Below, one piece after another: positions 20,764-42,170 of a DNA stretch of 64,000 nt. The notes beneath the pieces were generated by a model, which was not told the DNA's origin, ran no database searches, and was given only the letters and a program-made list of their open reading frames with translations. A program made the translations under genes and the position numbers. The stretch covers positions 1-64,000 of the forward strand of contig JAICQL010000013.1 in the NCBI GenBank assembly GCA_025937895.1, given 5' to 3'. Position 1 is the stretch's first letter, and every line of letters begins with the position of its first letter. The stretch is from Polyangiaceae bacterium. Its GTDB lineage: Bacteria; Myxococcota_A; Polyangia; Polyangiales; Polyangiaceae.

Positions 20764-20880
20764 CGCTGTGTCGTTCTAGCGCTGTGCCTCTTCTAGCGCT
20801 GCGCCTCTTCTTGGCGCTGCGCCTCTTCTTGGCGCTGCGCCTCTTCTTGGCGCTGCGCCTCTTCTTGGCGCTGCGCTGCG
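20751..20880. repeat. 18-bp tandem array spanning two convergent gene ends
   Basis: Diverged 15-18-bp units (gtgtcgttctagcgct, then gcgcctcttctagcgct) pass into four near-identical copies of gcgctgcgcctcttcttg. The cupin stop (20761-20763) and the GST stop (20793-20795 on the minus strand) both fall in units where the sequence reads ctag. Confidence 0.9.
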
Positions 20881-21533
20881 GCTGGCGATCCATCAAACAC
20901 GAAAGGGGTGGCGCGCGCGGAGGGGCGCTCGGTAAATCGCTCGCGAAACTGCTGCAAGCGCAGGTATGGCGCGAGCGGCAGCACCTGGCGGAACTCCAGG
21001 TGCTCCAGCAGGCAGAACAGCGACAGCTCCAGGTAGCTCAGGTCACGTTCAGGCAGCGCAGCCAGCGCCGGCTCCACGTTGTGCTCCAGCCAGCCCAGCA
21101 TGCCGTCGAGGCCGGTGCGCAGCTTGGCCGCGTACCCGCAGGCCTCACCCCCGGTGCCGGTGACCATGATCCACGAGACCTCGCTCGACATGGCCTGCAC
21201 GGTGAGCTCGAGCGCGTTGGCCGCGAGCGGCGCGGGGGTGGCCTCGGGCCAGACCATGCGCAGCGGGCGGGTGGCGTGGAGAGCCAGCGCCCGGCAGCTG
21301 CCGAGCGCGCCGAACACGGTGCCCTGGGCCGTGATCAGGCTGGGCAAGCGCAGGCCAGGGTGCCCGCCGTACGCGGCCGGGTCCGTGGCGAGCAAGCTGC
21401 CCACGACCTGCAGCTCGTACGGTGCGCCGCACTCCTGCGCGAACAGCCGCACCACCCGGGTGAAATGCGAGCTGGAGCGGCCGACGAGGCGCGGGCGCTC
21501 GACTGGGACGGGGTTGGAGGAGGATTCACGCAT
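20793..21533 (-). CDS. glutathione S-transferase-like protein with a QRQEEA repeat tail
   Basis: ATG 21533 has GGAG 6 nt upstream; TTG 21551 is also open. The product is 246 aa. The thioredoxin-like half has SHFTRVVRLFAQECGAPYEL and GLRLPSLI. The helical half has DLSYLELSLFCLLEHLEFR. Both are typical of GSTs, with a serine near the N-terminus as possible catalytic residue. The substrate is unknown. The last about 30 residues are EAQRQE-type repeats encoded by the 18-bp array and are not part of the fold. It lies 14 nt after the ankyrin gene stop on the same strand. Confidence 0.8.
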   Translation of the reverse strand: MRESSSNPVPVERPRLVGRSSSHFTRVVRLFAQECGAPYELQVVGSLLATDPAAYGGHPGLRLPSLITAQGTVFGALGSCRALALHATRPLRMVWPEATPAPLAANALELTVQAMSSEVSWIMVTGTGGEACGYAAKLRTGLDGMLGWLEHNVEPALAALPERDLSYLELSLFCLLEHLEFRQVLPLAPYLRLQQFRERFTERPSARATPFVFDGSPAAAQRQEEAQRQEEAQRQEEAQRQEEAQR

Positions 21534-21547
21534 GGCCAGCTCCGCTG

Positions 21548-22642
21548 TCAAGCCCCTGGCTTCTCACCGGCCGCGCGCCTCCGCAGCTCCTGAGCCAGGA
21601 GCGGCTCGACCTCGATGCCGTAGATGGTCAGGCCCTTGATGAAGGCGTCCTCGATGCGGGCGCCGGACAGGTTCACGTTGACCAGCTTGGCTCCCGACAG
21701 GTTGACGTTGGACAGCACCGTGTCCTTGAAATTGCAGTCGTGAAATAGCGCGGTATCGAACGAGCAGTCGCGAAACAGCGAGCGCGCAAAGCGACCGGCG
21801 CGCGTGGGCTGCGCGGCGATCAGCACACGGCCGTGCAGGCTCGGATCGCTGGCACCAGCGTCGAGCAACACGCGCGCCAGCTCCACGTCGGCGGCCAGCA
21901 CGGCCAGGTCCAGCGGGGTGCGGCCTGCGTCGTTCACCGAGTCCACCAGCTCGGGCTGCGCTGCGAGCAGGCGCCGCACGCTGGGCAAGTGCGAGAGCAC
22001 GCAGGCCTCGTGCAGGGTGCACTCCACCCCGTGCTCCAGGAGCAGGTGCCCCAGCTCGCGATGCGGCGGGCTCCAGGCATGTGCCAGCGCCACTTGCCAG
22101 GCAGTCTGACCGTTGCGACAGACCAGGCGCGGATCGGCCCCTGCCGCGAGGAGCAGCCGGGCCGCTTCCACCTGTCCGTTCCACACCGCCAGGAACAGCG
22201 CCGTGGAGCTCGCCGGGCCGCGAGCGTTGACGTCCGCCGACGGCAGCGCCTGGCGCAGCGCCGCCAGGCGCCCGAGCAAGGCGTGCACGAAGATGTCGTC
22301 CGGCACGCCGCGCGCGAGCAAGAGCTCGATCAGCGGCAGGGCGGGCGCTTGCTTGTGCGGGCCCGGGTGCGCCGCCAGGAGCAGGGGATCGCCTGCGCGC
22401 GGATCCGCGCCCGCATCCAGCAGCACCCGCGCCACCTCCAGCAGCGCCCGATCCGCGGCCTCGACCAGGGGCAAGCGGCCGCCGGAGCTGGGCTGTGCAG
22501 CCAGGCCGGGGTGGCGCTCACATAGCGAGCGCACCGCGGCCACGTCGGCGGCGCGCACGGCGAGCAGCAGGCGATCGGCTGGGCTGAGCGCCGGGTCCTG
22601 CGCAGAGCCGTCTACGGCGAGGGGCGGCGGAGTGTGGTCCAT
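21548..22642 (-). CDS. ankyrin-repeat protein with C-terminal pentapeptide repeats
   Basis: ATG 22642 gives 364 aa. Ankyrin-like units occur from about 20 to 280 (GGRLPLVEAADRALLEVARV, NGQVEAARLLLAAGADP, AGRTPLDLAVLAADVELARV). They are followed by pentapeptide repeats at about 290-345 (CSFDTALFHDCNF, LSNVNLSGAKLVNVNLSGA). Both parts are protein-interaction scaffolds, so no enzymatic role is implied. Lacking a signal peptide, it is likely cytoplasmic. It is co-transcribed with the GST-like gene. Confidence 0.85.
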   Translation of the reverse strand: MDHTPPPLAVDGSAQDPALSPADRLLLAVRAADVAAVRSLCERHPGLAAQPSSGGRLPLVEAADRALLEVARVLLDAGADPRAGDPLLLAAHPGPHKQAPALPLIELLLARGVPDDIFVHALLGRLAALRQALPSADVNARGPASSTALFLAVWNGQVEAARLLLAAGADPRLVCRNGQTAWQVALAHAWSPPHRELGHLLLEHGVECTLHEACVLSHLPSVRRLLAAQPELVDSVNDAGRTPLDLAVLAADVELARVLLDAGASDPSLHGRVLIAAQPTRAGRFARSLFRDCSFDTALFHDCNFKDTVLSNVNLSGAKLVNVNLSGARIEDAFIKGLTIYGIEVEPLLAQELRRRAAGEKPGA

Positions 22643-25668: not shown

Positions 25669-25772
25669 GGCTCTGCTGATGGCGCGCGGCGAGCGGAACC
25701 GCTAGCTGCGCGCAGCTGCATGTCAGTGCCGCGCGGCCCCGTTCACCGCGCGGCCCTTTGCTACGGGGCCCT

Positions 25773-25836
25773 GTTACCGCGCGGCTCCGTTACCGCGCGG
25801 CTCCGTTGCCGCGCGGCCCTGTTACCGCGCGGCTCG
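25773..25836. repeat. 16-bp intergenic tandem repeat
   Basis: Four copies of gttaccgcgcggctcc, the third and fourth slightly diverged, with a related unit at 25741. It lies between the RRM gene and the sdhB stop and is non-coding on the present gene map. Confidence 0.85.
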
Positions 25837-36373: not shown

Positions 36374-38161
36374 ATGTCCCTCCCGCCCTCTTCTTCGGAC
36401 ACGACCCCGGATGCGGCTGCCGGCCGGATGGCAGGCGAATATCGGCTAGGCCGCAAGCTGGGTGAAGGTGGCTTCGGTGCAGTGTACGAAGCGGAACACC
36501 CGGTGCTGCGCCGGCGCGCGGCGGTGAAGGTGCTGCACCAGGTGGCGGGCGTGGACTCGGACGCGGTGCAGCGCTTTGTCTCCGAGGCGCAGGCGGCCAG
36601 CCAGATCCGCAGCCGGCACATCGTGGACATCTTCTCGTTCGGCAGGCTGCCGAGCGGGCGCCACTTCTACGTGATGGATCTGCTGGATGGGCATCCTCTG
36701 GATCGCTACCTCCGGCACGTCAAGCGCTGTGACGTGGTGACCGCGCTGCAGCTGCTGCGCCCGATCGCCGAGGCGCTGGACGCGGCGCATGCCGCTGGCG
36801 TGGTGCACCGCGATCTCAAGCCGCAGAACATCTTCCTGTCCTGGGAGGCGGGCGGTGAGACGGTGCCCAAGCTGCTCGACTTCGGCATGGCCAAGCTGCT
36901 CGGCGAGTCGAACGTGCGCACCGTGAGCGGGGTGCCGATCGGCACGCCCCTGTACATGTCGCCCGAGCAAGCGCGGGGGGAGAGGGTGGATGGCCGCTCC
37001 GACGTGTATGAGCTGGGGGTGGTGTGCCACGAGATGCTGTCGGGAGTGGTGCCCTTCACGGGCGAGTCACCGCTGGCCGTGCTGATGGCTCACCTCACCC
37101 TGCCGCCGCCGCGGCTCTCGCAGGTGTGTCCGGAGCTGCCGGCGGAGCTGGATGAGCCGCTCCTGCACATGCTGGCAAAGGAGGCGGATGGCCGCCCGCC
37201 GAGCGCCATGGATGCCATTGCCGAGCTGGCGCGCGCCGCGGAGCTCGCGGGCTACGTGGTACCCGCCGGCATGCCCCACCTGCCGCGCCCGCAGCTGACG
37301 GTGGTGGCGTACCCGGGCGGGCAGCTGCACGACACGGATGCGGCGCTGGGCAGCAGTGGCCTGGGTGACGACGGGGTGGCCGCGAGCTTGCCGGCTGGCT
37401 CACGAGGCAGCGGGCAGCTGGCTCGCACCGATCGCGCGCCTGCATTGCGCCGGCGCAACTGGTCATTCCTGGCGCTGACGCTCGCGCTGGCCGGGGGCGT
37501 GCTGTATCTCGGCTCGAGCGCGCTGCGCGCCGGCAGCCAGCTCGCGCCCGCCACGCCTGCGCCACTGGCCAGCAGCACCAGCGGCGTAGCCGCCCTGCCT
37601 ACCAGCGGCGTAGCCGCCCTGCCCACCAGCCCCGCACCGTCAGCCGCCAGCACGCCGGCTTCTGCAAGCGCTCCAGCCGCAGCCGCTCCTGCGCCAGCGG
37701 CCGCCCCCACTCCAGCAACAGCTCCAGCCTCGGCAATGGCTGCAGCTCCAGCCGCGCCCGCTGCTGCCGCTTCTGCTCCAGCTGCTGCCACCGCACCCGC
37801 CGCCACCGCCGCCCTCGTCAGCGCTCCCCCCTCGTCCCTGGCAACCTCCGAGCCCCCAGGTCCTGCCTCCACGAAACCGGCAAGGCCCCCCGCGCCCGCA
37901 GAAGCCCCGCGCCAGGTGAAGGTGACCGTGCGCGGTGCGCCAGCGGGCGCGCGCGTCTGGCTCGGCACCACCGCGCTGGGCGAAGCGCCGGGCCCGGTGA
38001 CGGTGCCCTTCGGGCAAGCCCCACTGGAGCTGCGGGTGACGGCGCCGGGGCACTCCCCTCGCACCCTGCAGCTCACGCCGCAGCACGACCAGAGCGTCGA
38101 GGTGAGCTTGAAGAAGCGAGCGCCGCACAAGGACTCGAGCGATCTGGAGAGCCCGTTCTGA
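36374..38161 (+). CDS. transmembrane Ser/Thr protein kinase with PEGA domain
   Basis: The product is 595 aa. The kinase domain (23-290) is complete: glycine loop LGEGGFGAVY, K52, HRDLKPQN with D147, DFG at 169-171, and GTPLYMSPEQ. One membrane helix lies near 357-377 (FLALTLALAGGVLYLG). It is followed by a 130-residue Ala/Pro-rich spacer and a PEGA domain at about 515-580 (VTVRGAPAGARVWLG, ELRVTAPGHSPRTLQL) outside the inner membrane. It starts a four-gene operon: its stop shares one base with the next start (TGATG). It probably senses the envelope and signals inward. Confidence 0.95.
   Translation: MSLPPSSSDTTPDAAAGRMAGEYRLGRKLGEGGFGAVYEAEHPVLRRRAAVKVLHQVAGVDSDAVQRFVSEAQAASQIRSRHIVDIFSFGRLPSGRHFYVMDLLDGHPLDRYLRHVKRCDVVTALQLLRPIAEALDAAHAAGVVHRDLKPQNIFLSWEAGGETVPKLLDFGMAKLLGESNVRTVSGVPIGTPLYMSPEQARGERVDGRSDVYELGVVCHEMLSGVVPFTGESPLAVLMAHLTLPPPRLSQVCPELPAELDEPLLHMLAKEADGRPPSAMDAIAELARAAELAGYVVPAGMPHLPRPQLTVVAYPGGQLHDTDAALGSSGLGDDGVAASLPAGSRGSGQLARTDRAPALRRRNWSFLALTLALAGGVLYLGSSALRAGSQLAPATPAPLASSTSGVAALPTSGVAALPTSPAPSAASTPASASAPAAAAPAPAAAPTPATAPASAMAAAPAAPAAAASAPAAATAPAATAALVSAPPSSLATSEPPGPASTKPARPPAPAEAPRQVKVTVRGAPAGARVWLGTTALGEAPGPVTVPFGQAPLELRVTAPGHSPRTLQLTPQHDQSVEVSLKKRAPHKDSSDLESPF
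37578..37625. repeat. 24-bp in-frame duplication
   Basis: Two near-identical 24-bp copies encode TSGVAALP twice in the kinase's periplasmic spacer. Confidence 0.85.
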
Positions 38162-40830
38162 TGAGCGGCGCCGGAGCGGCCCGAGCGCTGCCGTTCGCGT
38201 ATTCCCTGCTCGCCTGCACCTCGCTGCTCGCACGCACCTCGCTGCTCGCACGCACCTCGCTGCTCGCACGCACCTCGCTGCTCGCACGCACCTCGCTGCT
38301 CGCAGGCAGCTTACTGTCCTCCTGCGCTTCGCTGCCGCAGCTCGAGACCGGCGAGTGCGGCAACCGTGTGGTGGAGGAGCTGGAGGACTGCGATGGCTTT
38401 CCTGCCGAAACGGGCGCCGAGTGTCGCGCGCCCGGCACCATCGGCGAGTGCCGCTTCGACTGCACGCGCGGCACCGATGGCGCCCGCCCCGCGTGCCCCA
38501 CCGGCTGGGGCTGCGATACGGGCGGCATTTGCCGGCGCGCCACCGGTGAGTGGGAGAGCCTGCGCGAGCTCGAGGTGGGCAGCGCCAACCAGCTGCTGAG
38601 CGGTGACTTCGATGGGGACGGCCGCGCAGATCTGGTGAGCCTGGAGCCGCCCGAGGGCGCCGGCATCACCCGGCTCAAGTTCCACTACTTCGACCCGGGC
38701 GCGCAGCTGAGCGAGACGCGCCTCTTTCCGCTGCGCATGCTGGCTCCCGTCGTGGGCAATCTCACCGACGACGCGCTGAGTGACGTGTTGTTCAGCGATC
38801 CGCGGGTGGGACTGCTGCGCGGGCGAGCGGATCGCAGCTGGCTGCCCGACGCCTTCAGCTCGTACCGCATCGCCGATACCGGCATGCGCGTGCACGGGGT
38901 GTCGCCGGGGCTGGTGGAGCGCACCAGCGGCTTCGTGGTGTTCGCGAGCCCGGAGGGGCAACACGGCATGTACATCGCCGATGCCAACATCGCCGGCATG
39001 CCGCGCCTGCTCGCGCCCCTGCCGGGGCCGGTCGAGACGTTTGCAGGACAGCCCGCTGCGGGGCGCCTGCTGGAGGATCGTGTGGCGCACCCCTGCACTC
39101 AGGTGGTGCTGGGGCTGCAGGGGGAGAGCCGCTTCTTGCTGTTCGACGCCTGCACCACGCGCGCCGGGGTGGACGGCCCGGCGTGGCGCGCGCAAGCCGA
39201 GGTGCTGGAGATCGCGCTGGTGCCGCCCTTACCGGTGGACAGCGGGCCGCTGCTCTGCGACCTGAACGGCGATCTGCACCTGGACGTGCTGATCGGCGCC
39301 GGCGGCAGCGCCTACGTCTCCTACGGCGACGGGCAGAGCCTCGCGCCAGCAGTGCCCTATCAACCGGCGATCGCCAACGCGTCGATGCCCTTGCCCAGCG
39401 TGCCGATGCCGCTGGCGGTGGGCGACGTGACCGGCGACGGAGCCCCGGATTTCCTGATGCCCGAGTCGCTCTACCTGTCGCGGCCAGCAGCCAGCGGCAC
39501 CGGCTTCGACTACGGCGCCTACGCGCAACACTCGCTCGGCTACTGGGATCGCGCGCTGGCGGCCGATCTGAACGGCAACGGCAAGCTGGACTTCGTGGCG
39601 GCGTCCAGCGAGCACCCGGGCATCGACTTCTTCAATGGCACGGGCACCACGGACATGACCCAGTTCAGCGTGCCCACGAACCGCCCCGTCCAGCACCTGG
39701 TCAGCGGAGACTTTGACGGCGATCTGTTGCTGGATCTGGCGCTGAGCCAGGCCAGCAACCCTGCGGGTGCAGCGGATTCCGTGCTGATGGCCTACGGCTC
39801 GCCCTCGGGGGCCCCGCAGCCGCCGGTGCCCGTGGCGCGGGTGAGCGGCATCGAGCAGCTGAGCAGCGTGCGCGAGGGCGCGCTCGATCACCTGATGGTC
39901 AGCTCGGGGCGCCGCAACGACGCTGGTTACAGTGGTGCGCTGGCCATCTTGGCCTCCAACGGGGATCGCGTGCCGCTCGCCTCCTTCGATCTGACCACGT
40001 TCGCCGAGGATAGCTCGACCGATGGCTCCGCAGCGGTGCGCCTGGCCGCCGGCGGCCTGCTCGCGCCCGGCAACAAAGACGTGCTGGCCCTGGCCTATGC
40101 GCTCGACGGCGGCGGCCTGCTCGATCCCGGCAGGGGCTTGCAGGCGTGGCTGCTGCCGTCGCTGGCCAGCGACGGCACTCCGGCGCGCCTGGCCGTCCAG
40201 TTCGAAGCCGAGATGACTCCGGTGCCGCCGATCAGTATCAACGTTGCGCCGCTCAGCCTCGCCACCCTCGCTGCAGATATGGACGGTGACGGACGCGAGG
40301 AGTTGCTGGTGGCCGCCCCGCTCGTCGACGGCGCGGGTTGCTCGCTGGCGGCCTTCACGGTGGAGCCCACCGAGCTGGTCAGCCGCGGCAGCTGGGCCCT
40401 GGACGAGGCGTGCGCCCGGCTGGAGCTGAGCTCGCTCGACCTGGACGCGGATGGCGCGCTCGACGTGCTGCTGCGCACCGGCCCCAACCCGGACGGCAGC
40501 GGCAAGCTCTCGATCCTGTGGAACGACGGTAGCGGCGGCCTCGTGCCCGAGCGCCGCACCGTGCTCACGGACGCGGCGCCCCTGGGCCAGGCGGTGCTGC
40601 GCGCCAGCGGGGCGCAGCCGCTGACCGTGGCCGTGGTCAACTCCGAGGGCTTGTGGCTGGTGCCTGCCACCCAGCAGGCGCGCGAGTTCGAGCCGCCGCA
40701 GCTCTTCGTCCAGCGCACTGACTGCACCGGGGTGGTCGCGGCGGACTTCAACGGCGACGCCGTGCTGGATCTGGCGTACGCCGCAGGTGGCAACGTCAAC
40801 CTGCTCCGCGCCGTGCTGGAGGCGCAATGA
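38161..40830 (+). CDS. FG-GAP/VCBS-type repeat lipoprotein with an expanded signal peptide
   Basis: The product is 889 aa. FG-GAP-like calcium motifs recur (SGDFDGDGRADLVS, CDLNGDLHLDVLIG, GDVTGDGAPDFLMP, ADLNGNGKLDFVA, ADMDGDGREELLVA, LDLDADGALDVLLR, ADFNGDAVLDLAYA), suggesting a seven-bladed integrin-like propeller. A Cys-rich segment (CGNRVVEELEDCDG, CPTGWGCDTGGIC) precedes it. The N-terminus has two possible lipoboxes, SLLAC (C19) and LLSSC (C55), separated by five TSLLAR-type repeats. It is expected on the cell surface and overlaps the kinase upstream and the PEGA gene downstream. Confidence 0.9.
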   Translation: MSGAGAARALPFAYSLLACTSLLARTSLLARTSLLARTSLLARTSLLAGSLLSSCASLPQLETGECGNRVVEELEDCDGFPAETGAECRAPGTIGECRFDCTRGTDGARPACPTGWGCDTGGICRRATGEWESLRELEVGSANQLLSGDFDGDGRADLVSLEPPEGAGITRLKFHYFDPGAQLSETRLFPLRMLAPVVGNLTDDALSDVLFSDPRVGLLRGRADRSWLPDAFSSYRIADTGMRVHGVSPGLVERTSGFVVFASPEGQHGMYIADANIAGMPRLLAPLPGPVETFAGQPAAGRLLEDRVAHPCTQVVLGLQGESRFLLFDACTTRAGVDGPAWRAQAEVLEIALVPPLPVDSGPLLCDLNGDLHLDVLIGAGGSAYVSYGDGQSLAPAVPYQPAIANASMPLPSVPMPLAVGDVTGDGAPDFLMPESLYLSRPAASGTGFDYGAYAQHSLGYWDRALAADLNGNGKLDFVAASSEHPGIDFFNGTGTTDMTQFSVPTNRPVQHLVSGDFDGDLLLDLALSQASNPAGAADSVLMAYGSPSGAPQPPVPVARVSGIEQLSSVREGALDHLMVSSGRRNDAGYSGALAILASNGDRVPLASFDLTTFAEDSSTDGSAAVRLAAGGLLAPGNKDVLALAYALDGGGLLDPGRGLQAWLLPSLASDGTPARLAVQFEAEMTPVPPISINVAPLSLATLAADMDGDGREELLVAAPLVDGAGCSLAAFTVEPTELVSRGSWALDEACARLELSSLDLDADGALDVLLRTGPNPDGSGKLSILWNDGSGGLVPERRTVLTDAAPLGQAVLRASGAQPLTVAVVNSEGLWLVPATQQAREFEPPQLFVQRTDCTGVVAADFNGDAVLDLAYAAGGNVNLLRAVLEAQ
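38218..38307. repeat. 18-bp in-frame tandem repeat inside a signal peptide
   Basis: Five copies of acctcgctgctcgcacgc, the last ending ggc. They encode TSLLAR four times and TSLLAG once, between two candidate lipoboxes. Confidence 0.95.
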
Positions 40831-42170
40831 ACCCTCGCTGGTCGTGGTTGCGCCGGGTCTTGCTGGTGCTGCTGTGCGCGCTGGCGCGGCCCGCCGCCGC
40901 GCAGCAAACGAGCACGGCTGAAACAACCAGCGCTGTCCCGGCCAGCTCCGCGAGCGCTGCCAGCTCCAGCTCTGCCAGCCCGGCACCAAGAGATGCGCGC
41001 GCCATCGCCGCAGTCAAGGAGTGGTTCGCGGCAGCGCAGGCGGCGTACGAGGCCGGGGACTACCTGGCTGCGATCCAGGCGCTGGAGGCCGCCAACGAGC
41101 TCTCGCCCAGCCCCGCGCTGGCGTTCTCCATCGCGCAGACGGAGCGCGAGCAGTTCCTGGTCGATGGCCGCCCGGAGCGCATCTTGCGCGCGGTGGCGCT
41201 CTACCGCCGCTATCTGGATGAGGACCCCAAGGGCAAGCGCCGGAAAGAGGCGCTCGACGCCCTGGCGCAGCTCGAGCCGCAGCTGGCCAAGCTGCAGAGC
41301 ACGGGCGCGGGCGCCGCGGCGGCACCTGGCGTGCAGCAGAGCACGCGCATCCTGGTGCTGTGTGAGCTGCCGGAGGCGCGCATCTCGGTGGACGGCGCAG
41401 AGCCAGCGCCTTCGCCGCTGATCCGCGAGGTGGCCCCGGGCAACCACGAGGTCGTGGTGCGAGCGCCGGGCCACCATGACAGCGTGCGCCAGGTGGTGGC
41501 GGTGCTCGGCGAGCTGGTGCCCATCACCGTCAGCCTCGCCGAGCTGCCCGCTCGCGTGCGCCTGTCGGCGCCGCACGACGCGGAGGTCTACGTCGATGGC
41601 GTGCTGGTGAGTCAGGGCGCGAAAGATCTGGAGCTGGAGCTGCCCAGCGGGCAGCACCGCATCAGCGTCGCGGAGAAGGGCCACCGCCTGGCGACCCAGA
41701 CCCTGGAGCTCGGGCGGGGCGAGACCCGCACCGCACACTTCGAGCTCGAGCGCACCCGCCAGCGGCTGGCCTCACACGGCATGCTCGTGGCGGGCGCCGC
41801 GGCGCTCGCTGCCGGCGGCGCCTTCACGTTCCTGGCGGTGCGCTCGGAGAGTCAGGCCAAGAGCTTCCTCGAGCGGCAGGAGCGCGCCGCCGCCAGCCCG
41901 GCAGAGCTGGTGCGCTACAACGCCGACGTCGCCTCGCGCAACCAGTTCCGCTGGATGGCCGTCGGCGCCTTCACCAGCTCGCTCGGCTTGCTGGTGACCG
42001 GGCTCATCTTGCACGAGCTCGACATGCCCGGGCCCGACGAGCTGTATCGCTTCCTGCCGCCGCGCGAGGGCGCGCCCAGCGCGGAAGCCGATCAGACCAA
42101 AACCAGCCTGAGCCTGGCAGCCATGATCGCGCCAGACCAATACGGCGCCAGCTTGCGAGGCGAGTTCTGA
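40827..42170 (+). CDS. exported TPR-like and PEGA-domain protein
   Basis: The start overlaps the upstream stop (ATGA); 447 aa. A signal peptide ends at about 25 (LARPAAAQQ). Residues 60-160 look TPR-like (EWFAAAQAAYEAGDYLAAIQ, ALYRRYLDEDPKGKRRKEAL). Two PEGA-type units follow (about 180-235, EARISVDGAEP, HEVVVRAPGHHD; and about 240-300, AEVYVDGVLVSQG, HRISVAEKGHR). Two membrane helices lie near 313-332 and 372-395. This is a common Polyangia architecture encoded beside kinases. It likely works with the kinase and surface proteins of this operon; the biochemical role is unknown. Confidence 0.85.
   Translation: MNPRWSWLRRVLLVLLCALARPAAAQQTSTAETTSAVPASSASAASSSSASPAPRDARAIAAVKEWFAAAQAAYEAGDYLAAIQALEAANELSPSPALAFSIAQTEREQFLVDGRPERILRAVALYRRYLDEDPKGKRRKEALDALAQLEPQLAKLQSTGAGAAAAPGVQQSTRILVLCELPEARISVDGAEPAPSPLIREVAPGNHEVVVRAPGHHDSVRQVVAVLGELVPITVSLAELPARVRLSAPHDAEVYVDGVLVSQGAKDLELELPSGQHRISVAEKGHRLATQTLELGRGETRTAHFELERTRQRLASHGMLVAGAAALAAGGAFTFLAVRSESQAKSFLERQERAAASPAELVRYNADVASRNQFRWMAVGAFTSSLGLLVTGLILHELDMPGPDELYRFLPPREGAPSAEADQTKTSLSLAAMIAPDQYGASLRGEF

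Follow-up and report, generated by a model that had tools for sequence, protein, structure and literature searches.

An in-frame 18-bp tandem array in the predicted signal peptide of an FG-GAP repeat lipoprotein from a Polyangiaceae bacterium

The gene trio and the 18-bp array

The window analyzed here, a 64,000-nucleotide stretch of a Polyangiaceae contig, carries on its forward strand three overlapping genes, which encode a serine/threonine kinase with a C-terminal PEGA domain (36374..38161), an 889-residue FG-GAP repeat lipoprotein with an expanded signal peptide (38161..40830), and a PEGA-domain protein (40827..42170) whose gene overlaps that of the lipoprotein by 4 bp. The lipoprotein was assigned by Pfam and by a 15-sequence alignment. 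Its matches to FG-GAP_3 (E 5.2e-34, 117.1 bits against a cut-off of 26.9) and FG-GAP (E 7.4e-20, 70.8 bits against 22.1) exceed the curated Pfam cut-offs and place it among the FG-GAP repeat proteins. When the alignment profile was compared with solved structures, an esterase, integrin alpha chains, and lectins were matched, as would be expected of FG-GAP proteins. A kinase match was present at 28, and a match to the PEGA-domain protein at 29, of the 30 loci compared (L179-L208, own locus included), and thus the kinase/lipoprotein/PEGA trio (36374-42170) is conserved across the family.

The kinase TGA overlaps the lipoprotein ATG in the junction TTCTGATG. A junction of exactly this type also occurs at L003, L007, and L014, and a related 4-base overlap at L002 and L011, which amounts to overlap junctions in 5 of the 18 homologues listed. 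A reading of the sequence from 38161 as far as the codon of residue 55 met no further ATG, GTG, or TTG in frame. Because of these two observations the start at 38161 is considered sound. A misannotated start, in which the repeat would be an untranslated leader, could draw on the homologues, whose starts lie about 14-35 residues ahead of the cysteine equivalent to C55, but the lack of any alternative in-frame start and the overlap with the kinase stop leave this reading scarcely credible. The original prediction had named, as a sign of misannotation, orthologues that lack the repeat but start at a conserved methionine just before LLSSC. The repeat is indeed missing from homologues, in which the cysteine is retained, but no start codon lies just before LLSSC here, and hence the start is not misannotated.

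The tandem array occupies 38206..38308 of the forward strand and was scored by TRF as 5.7 copies of an 18-bp period with 96% matches and a score of 185. In translation it corresponds to SLLAC, four TSLLAR units, and one TSLLAG unit, such that the N-terminus of the open reading frame from 38161 reads MSGAGAARALPFAYSLLAC (to residue 19), TSLLAR four times, TSLLAG, and SLLSSC (to residue 55), followed by ASLPQ. The expectations of an 18-bp repeat that expands the signal peptide between two lipobox-like cysteines, of five TSLLAR/TSLLAG units between C19 (SLLAC) and C55 (LLSSC), and of an arginine every six residues were all borne out by TRF and translation. The four TSLLAR units are alike at 18 of 18 bases, silent positions included, which suggests recent growth; the first and last units of the 103-bp array differ from the rest.

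The array is real and beyond chance. Among 20 second-order Markov versions of the window, 19 contained no array and the remaining one a single array (best score 51), as opposed to 12 arrays of at least three copies in the real window. With 5.7 near-identical tandem units of 18 bp (96% matches), it falls within the definition of a minisatellite, whose units are about 7 bp or more. By its unit length it does not have the form of a phase-variable locus, in which units that are not a multiple of three, or a placement in the promoter, turn expression on and off, as the 18-bp unit stays within the coding frame. Two other candidate identities were rejected. A mobile or dispersed repeat was dismissed because a search of the 8.57 Mb draft genome for the 32-base double-unit pattern, at a tolerance of 3 mismatches, returned no second site. 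A structured RNA element finds no support, because the fold of 38110-38340 was weaker than all 200 of 200 shuffles (z +2.63).

Homologous signal peptides and the two lipobox cysteines

A first genome search found a match in 30 of 59 genomes, own genome included, and a search of the family found one at E 1e-30 or better in 59 of 108 genomes. N-termini were read at 74 loci, own locus included, of which 70 came from the family search, with its weaker or fragmentary places set aside, and 4 from other families. The repeat was present at none of the 73 homologous loci. Their signal peptides are ordinary, about 14-35 residues in length, and end at the cysteine equivalent to C55; the regular expression used to locate this cysteine took an upstream one in some rows (among them L003, L184, L185, L244, L247, L251, L255, and L268), and these were corrected by eye. 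The cysteine at C55 is shared by all 15 sequences of the alignment. The homologue from the same genus shares 38% identity and lacks the array, and a contig search for close relatives returned only distant matches, the best by E-value being 28% identical. FG-GAP lipoproteins encoded in such trios elsewhere in the family and order have the same gene order and share with this protein the CxxL...CGNG..E..CD N-terminus and FG-GAP-like repeats, but, unlike it, none of the 73 has an expanded signal peptide. Since the homologues lack the repeat, the in-frame enlargement of the hydrophobic core is specific to this lineage, and since their signal peptides end at the equivalent of C55, this residue is taken as the ancestral lipidation cysteine.

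Two cysteines are candidates for processing, as the original prediction proposed: C55 in LLSSC (codon 38323..38325, forward strand), which aligns with the lipobox cysteine conserved among the homologues, and the lineage-specific C19 in SLLAC (codon 38215..38217, forward strand), the first in the protein to lie in a loose lipobox. A strict lipobox pattern fits C55 only, and a looser, PROSITE-like pattern fits both. The features of a lipoprotein signal, namely a conserved lipobox cysteine after a basic n-region and an uncharged hydrophobic region, are found by way of C55. In a lipobox scoring matrix built from 54 homologue signal peptides, C19 scored -1.0 and C55 -2.8, and every other scored cysteine of the protein -7.9 or lower. 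Both values lie within the leave-one-out range of the homologues (-8.2 to 14.2), but both are low, C55 exceeding 6 and C19 exceeding 7 of 53 homologue signal peptides. The mean hydropathy of the 12 residues before the cysteine is 0.68 for C55 and 1.10 for C19, against a homologue minimum of 1.23. These low lipobox scores, together with a core hydropathy below that of every homologue used, make reduced or failed export possible. In all likelihood the protein has remained an FG-GAP lipoprotein exported by the Sec pathway.

On present evidence we lean slightly toward C55 as the residue chiefly modified, on account of its conservation and its strict lipobox; processing at C19, or a mixture of the two, would account for the remainder. 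Use of C19 is the less probable but still appreciable alternative, and in the mature lipoprotein the repeat would then form a new N-terminal tether, 36 residues long and Leu/Arg-rich, that joins the conserved domain to the lipid. Processing at C19 is favored by the first uncharged hydrophobic stretch being residues 9-24, by the loose lipobox fit of C19, by a matrix score slightly better than that of C55, and by other loose lipoboxes with leucine at -2 among the homologues (LLDC, LLQC). Yet C19 does not fit the strict lipobox and lacks conservation, while C55 is invariant, and of the two lipoboxes of E. coli YcjN it is the downstream one whose cysteine is lipidated (PMC11543891). Processing at C19 and a neutral origin of the array can hold together.

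Tandem arrays across the genome

Arrays were surveyed in 1.388 Mb of the same genome, in 101 pieces consisting of the first 20 kb of contigs 1-101, except for contig 71, the contig of the window, plus the window itself. The sample represents 16% of a draft assembly of 8.57 Mb in 425 contigs, with an estimated contamination of 7.66%, and arrays were counted if they had at least 3 copies, a period of at least 6, and a score of at least 50. There were 165 arrays (119 per Mb), compared with 9 in 0.236 Mb (38 per Mb) of a genome of the same genus, G001 (Poisson P 3e-5). Periods divisible by three were found in 92 of 98 arrays within called genes versus 33 of 67 outside them (Fisher P 6e-11), where gene calling by GC3 was approximate and some of the outside arrays may sit in missed genes. 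Outside called genes the commonest periods were 15, 14, 13, and 16 bp. Such a frame bias would be expected were arrays of about 15 bp to arise throughout the genome, with chiefly the frame-keeping ones surviving in genes.

Other arrays in the window include an 18-bp array of 5.5 copies at 20779-20876, which lies over the 3' end of the minus-strand open reading frame 20793-21551 and gives its product a C-terminal QEEAQR repeat; a 15-bp array of 7.8 copies at 38-155, with GTAEG units near the start of the open reading frame 14-562; and a 16-bp array of 6.6 copies at 25729-25835, also scored as 48-bp units, whose period is not divisible by three.

The survey also bears on the integrity of the assembly. 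That the array is an artefact of assembly might be suspected in a draft of 425 contigs, but an array of just 103 bp whose first and last units are distinct, the many array sequences and periods across the sampled contigs, and a strong in-gene frame bias that an assembler would not make render this very improbable.

At least three other signal peptides in the sample carry unrelated in-frame arrays: AALTC units ahead of the VLGC lipobox of an LTD-domain lipoprotein (L048 779-849), VALGA units in the lipoprotein-like signal peptide of a GH9 glycoside hydrolase (L094 18206-18259), and LLASV units in the signal peptide of a matrixin-like protein (L046 18220-18265). Less clear cases (L049, L079, and L102) were kept out of the count. 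Homologues of the L048 and L094 proteins are too far removed, or too unlike at the N-terminus, for a clean second comparison, and the few with a visible signal (e.g. L210, L212, and L224) have no array. The four signal peptides with arrays, window included, compare with 2.1 expected from even scattering over coding sequence (P(>=4) = 0.16), and a preference of arrays for signal peptides is therefore not proven. In a short open reading frame of the same genome, L049 3836-3959 is a 15-bp array of 8.3 copies with GSALL/GSALV units.

The original prediction further proposed that the number of units could act as a switch for export or sorting, and the data do not support this. An adaptive dial or switch of this kind has in its favor that the length of an in-frame leucine repeat alters secretion of human CNDP1 (PMC6271292), so that length can matter in principle, and that the four identical middle units are likely to be unstable. 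Against it, the repeat occurs at 0 of 73 homologous loci, 18-bp steps cannot turn the frame off, a lipoprotein results from either cysteine, many unrelated arrays lie elsewhere in the genome, also outside called genes, and signal peptides are not significantly enriched in arrays. We regard such a dial as quite unlikely. Also improbable is a scheme in which the two cysteines would compete for lipidation and the number of units would decide how much of the protein is made in a short form (C55) relative to one with a Leu/Arg tether (C19); in a genome so rich in minisatellites, several lipoproteins could then vary heritably, and in parallel, in how they are anchored to the surface.

Origin of the expansion and known systems

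The array probably represents lineage-specific, non-adaptive, and tolerated in-frame growth of a minisatellite in a lipoprotein signal peptide, as one part of a genome-wide tendency. We infer that replication slippage or unequal recombination multiplied an 18-bp unit inside the leucine-rich core, whereby the signal peptide would have lengthened from an ancestral size of about 25 residues or less to 54. The genome as a whole appears prone to grow tandem arrays of about 13-21 bp, of which this would be one. Tolerance would follow from the retained reading frame and from a usable lipobox being left in place: the unit keeps the frame, and the ancestral C55 lipobox, perhaps with the second C19 lipobox that the expansion may have created, would still allow export and lipidation. 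An effect of length on export would leave the same sequence as neutrality, and neutrality is not proven.

The presence of four extra arginines within one signal peptide, in an otherwise intact gene of a conserved operon, suggests that lipoprotein signal peptides may tolerate such insertions. The genome-wide pattern, with a modal period near 15 bp and arrays in frame inside genes, offers a natural test bed for the remodelling of protein ends by minisatellites. If C19 and C55 do compete in vivo, the protein would be a natural case of lipidation-site choice.

A search of open-access literature with limited terms turned up no paper recognisably on minisatellites in the signal peptides of bacterial lipoproteins or in bacteria of this group. 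The nearest known systems resemble this one in different respects. For two lipoboxes in a single signal peptide, the counterpart is E. coli YcjN, in which the motifs lie just six residues apart, no repeat is mentioned, and, unlike here, lipidation has been shown, at the downstream cysteine. In the opa genes of Neisseria, too, the part that encodes the signal peptide of a surface protein contains a tandem repeat, but its pentanucleotide units shift the frame and so bring about on/off phase variation, which 18-bp units cannot. In-frame leucine (CTG) repeat polymorphisms occur in the signal peptides of human CNDP1, where they change secretion, and of primate PCSK9 (PMC2034530). These are parallels in kind, each being a frame-preserving tandem repeat in a signal peptide that alters the length of the hydrophobic core, but they involve 3-bp units, eukaryotic ER signals, and documented population variation, in contrast to an 18-bp unit with arginine in a bacterial lipoprotein. 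The present array thus differs from CNDP1, PCSK9, and opa in the size of its unit, in the arginine that most units carry, and in its lipoprotein setting.
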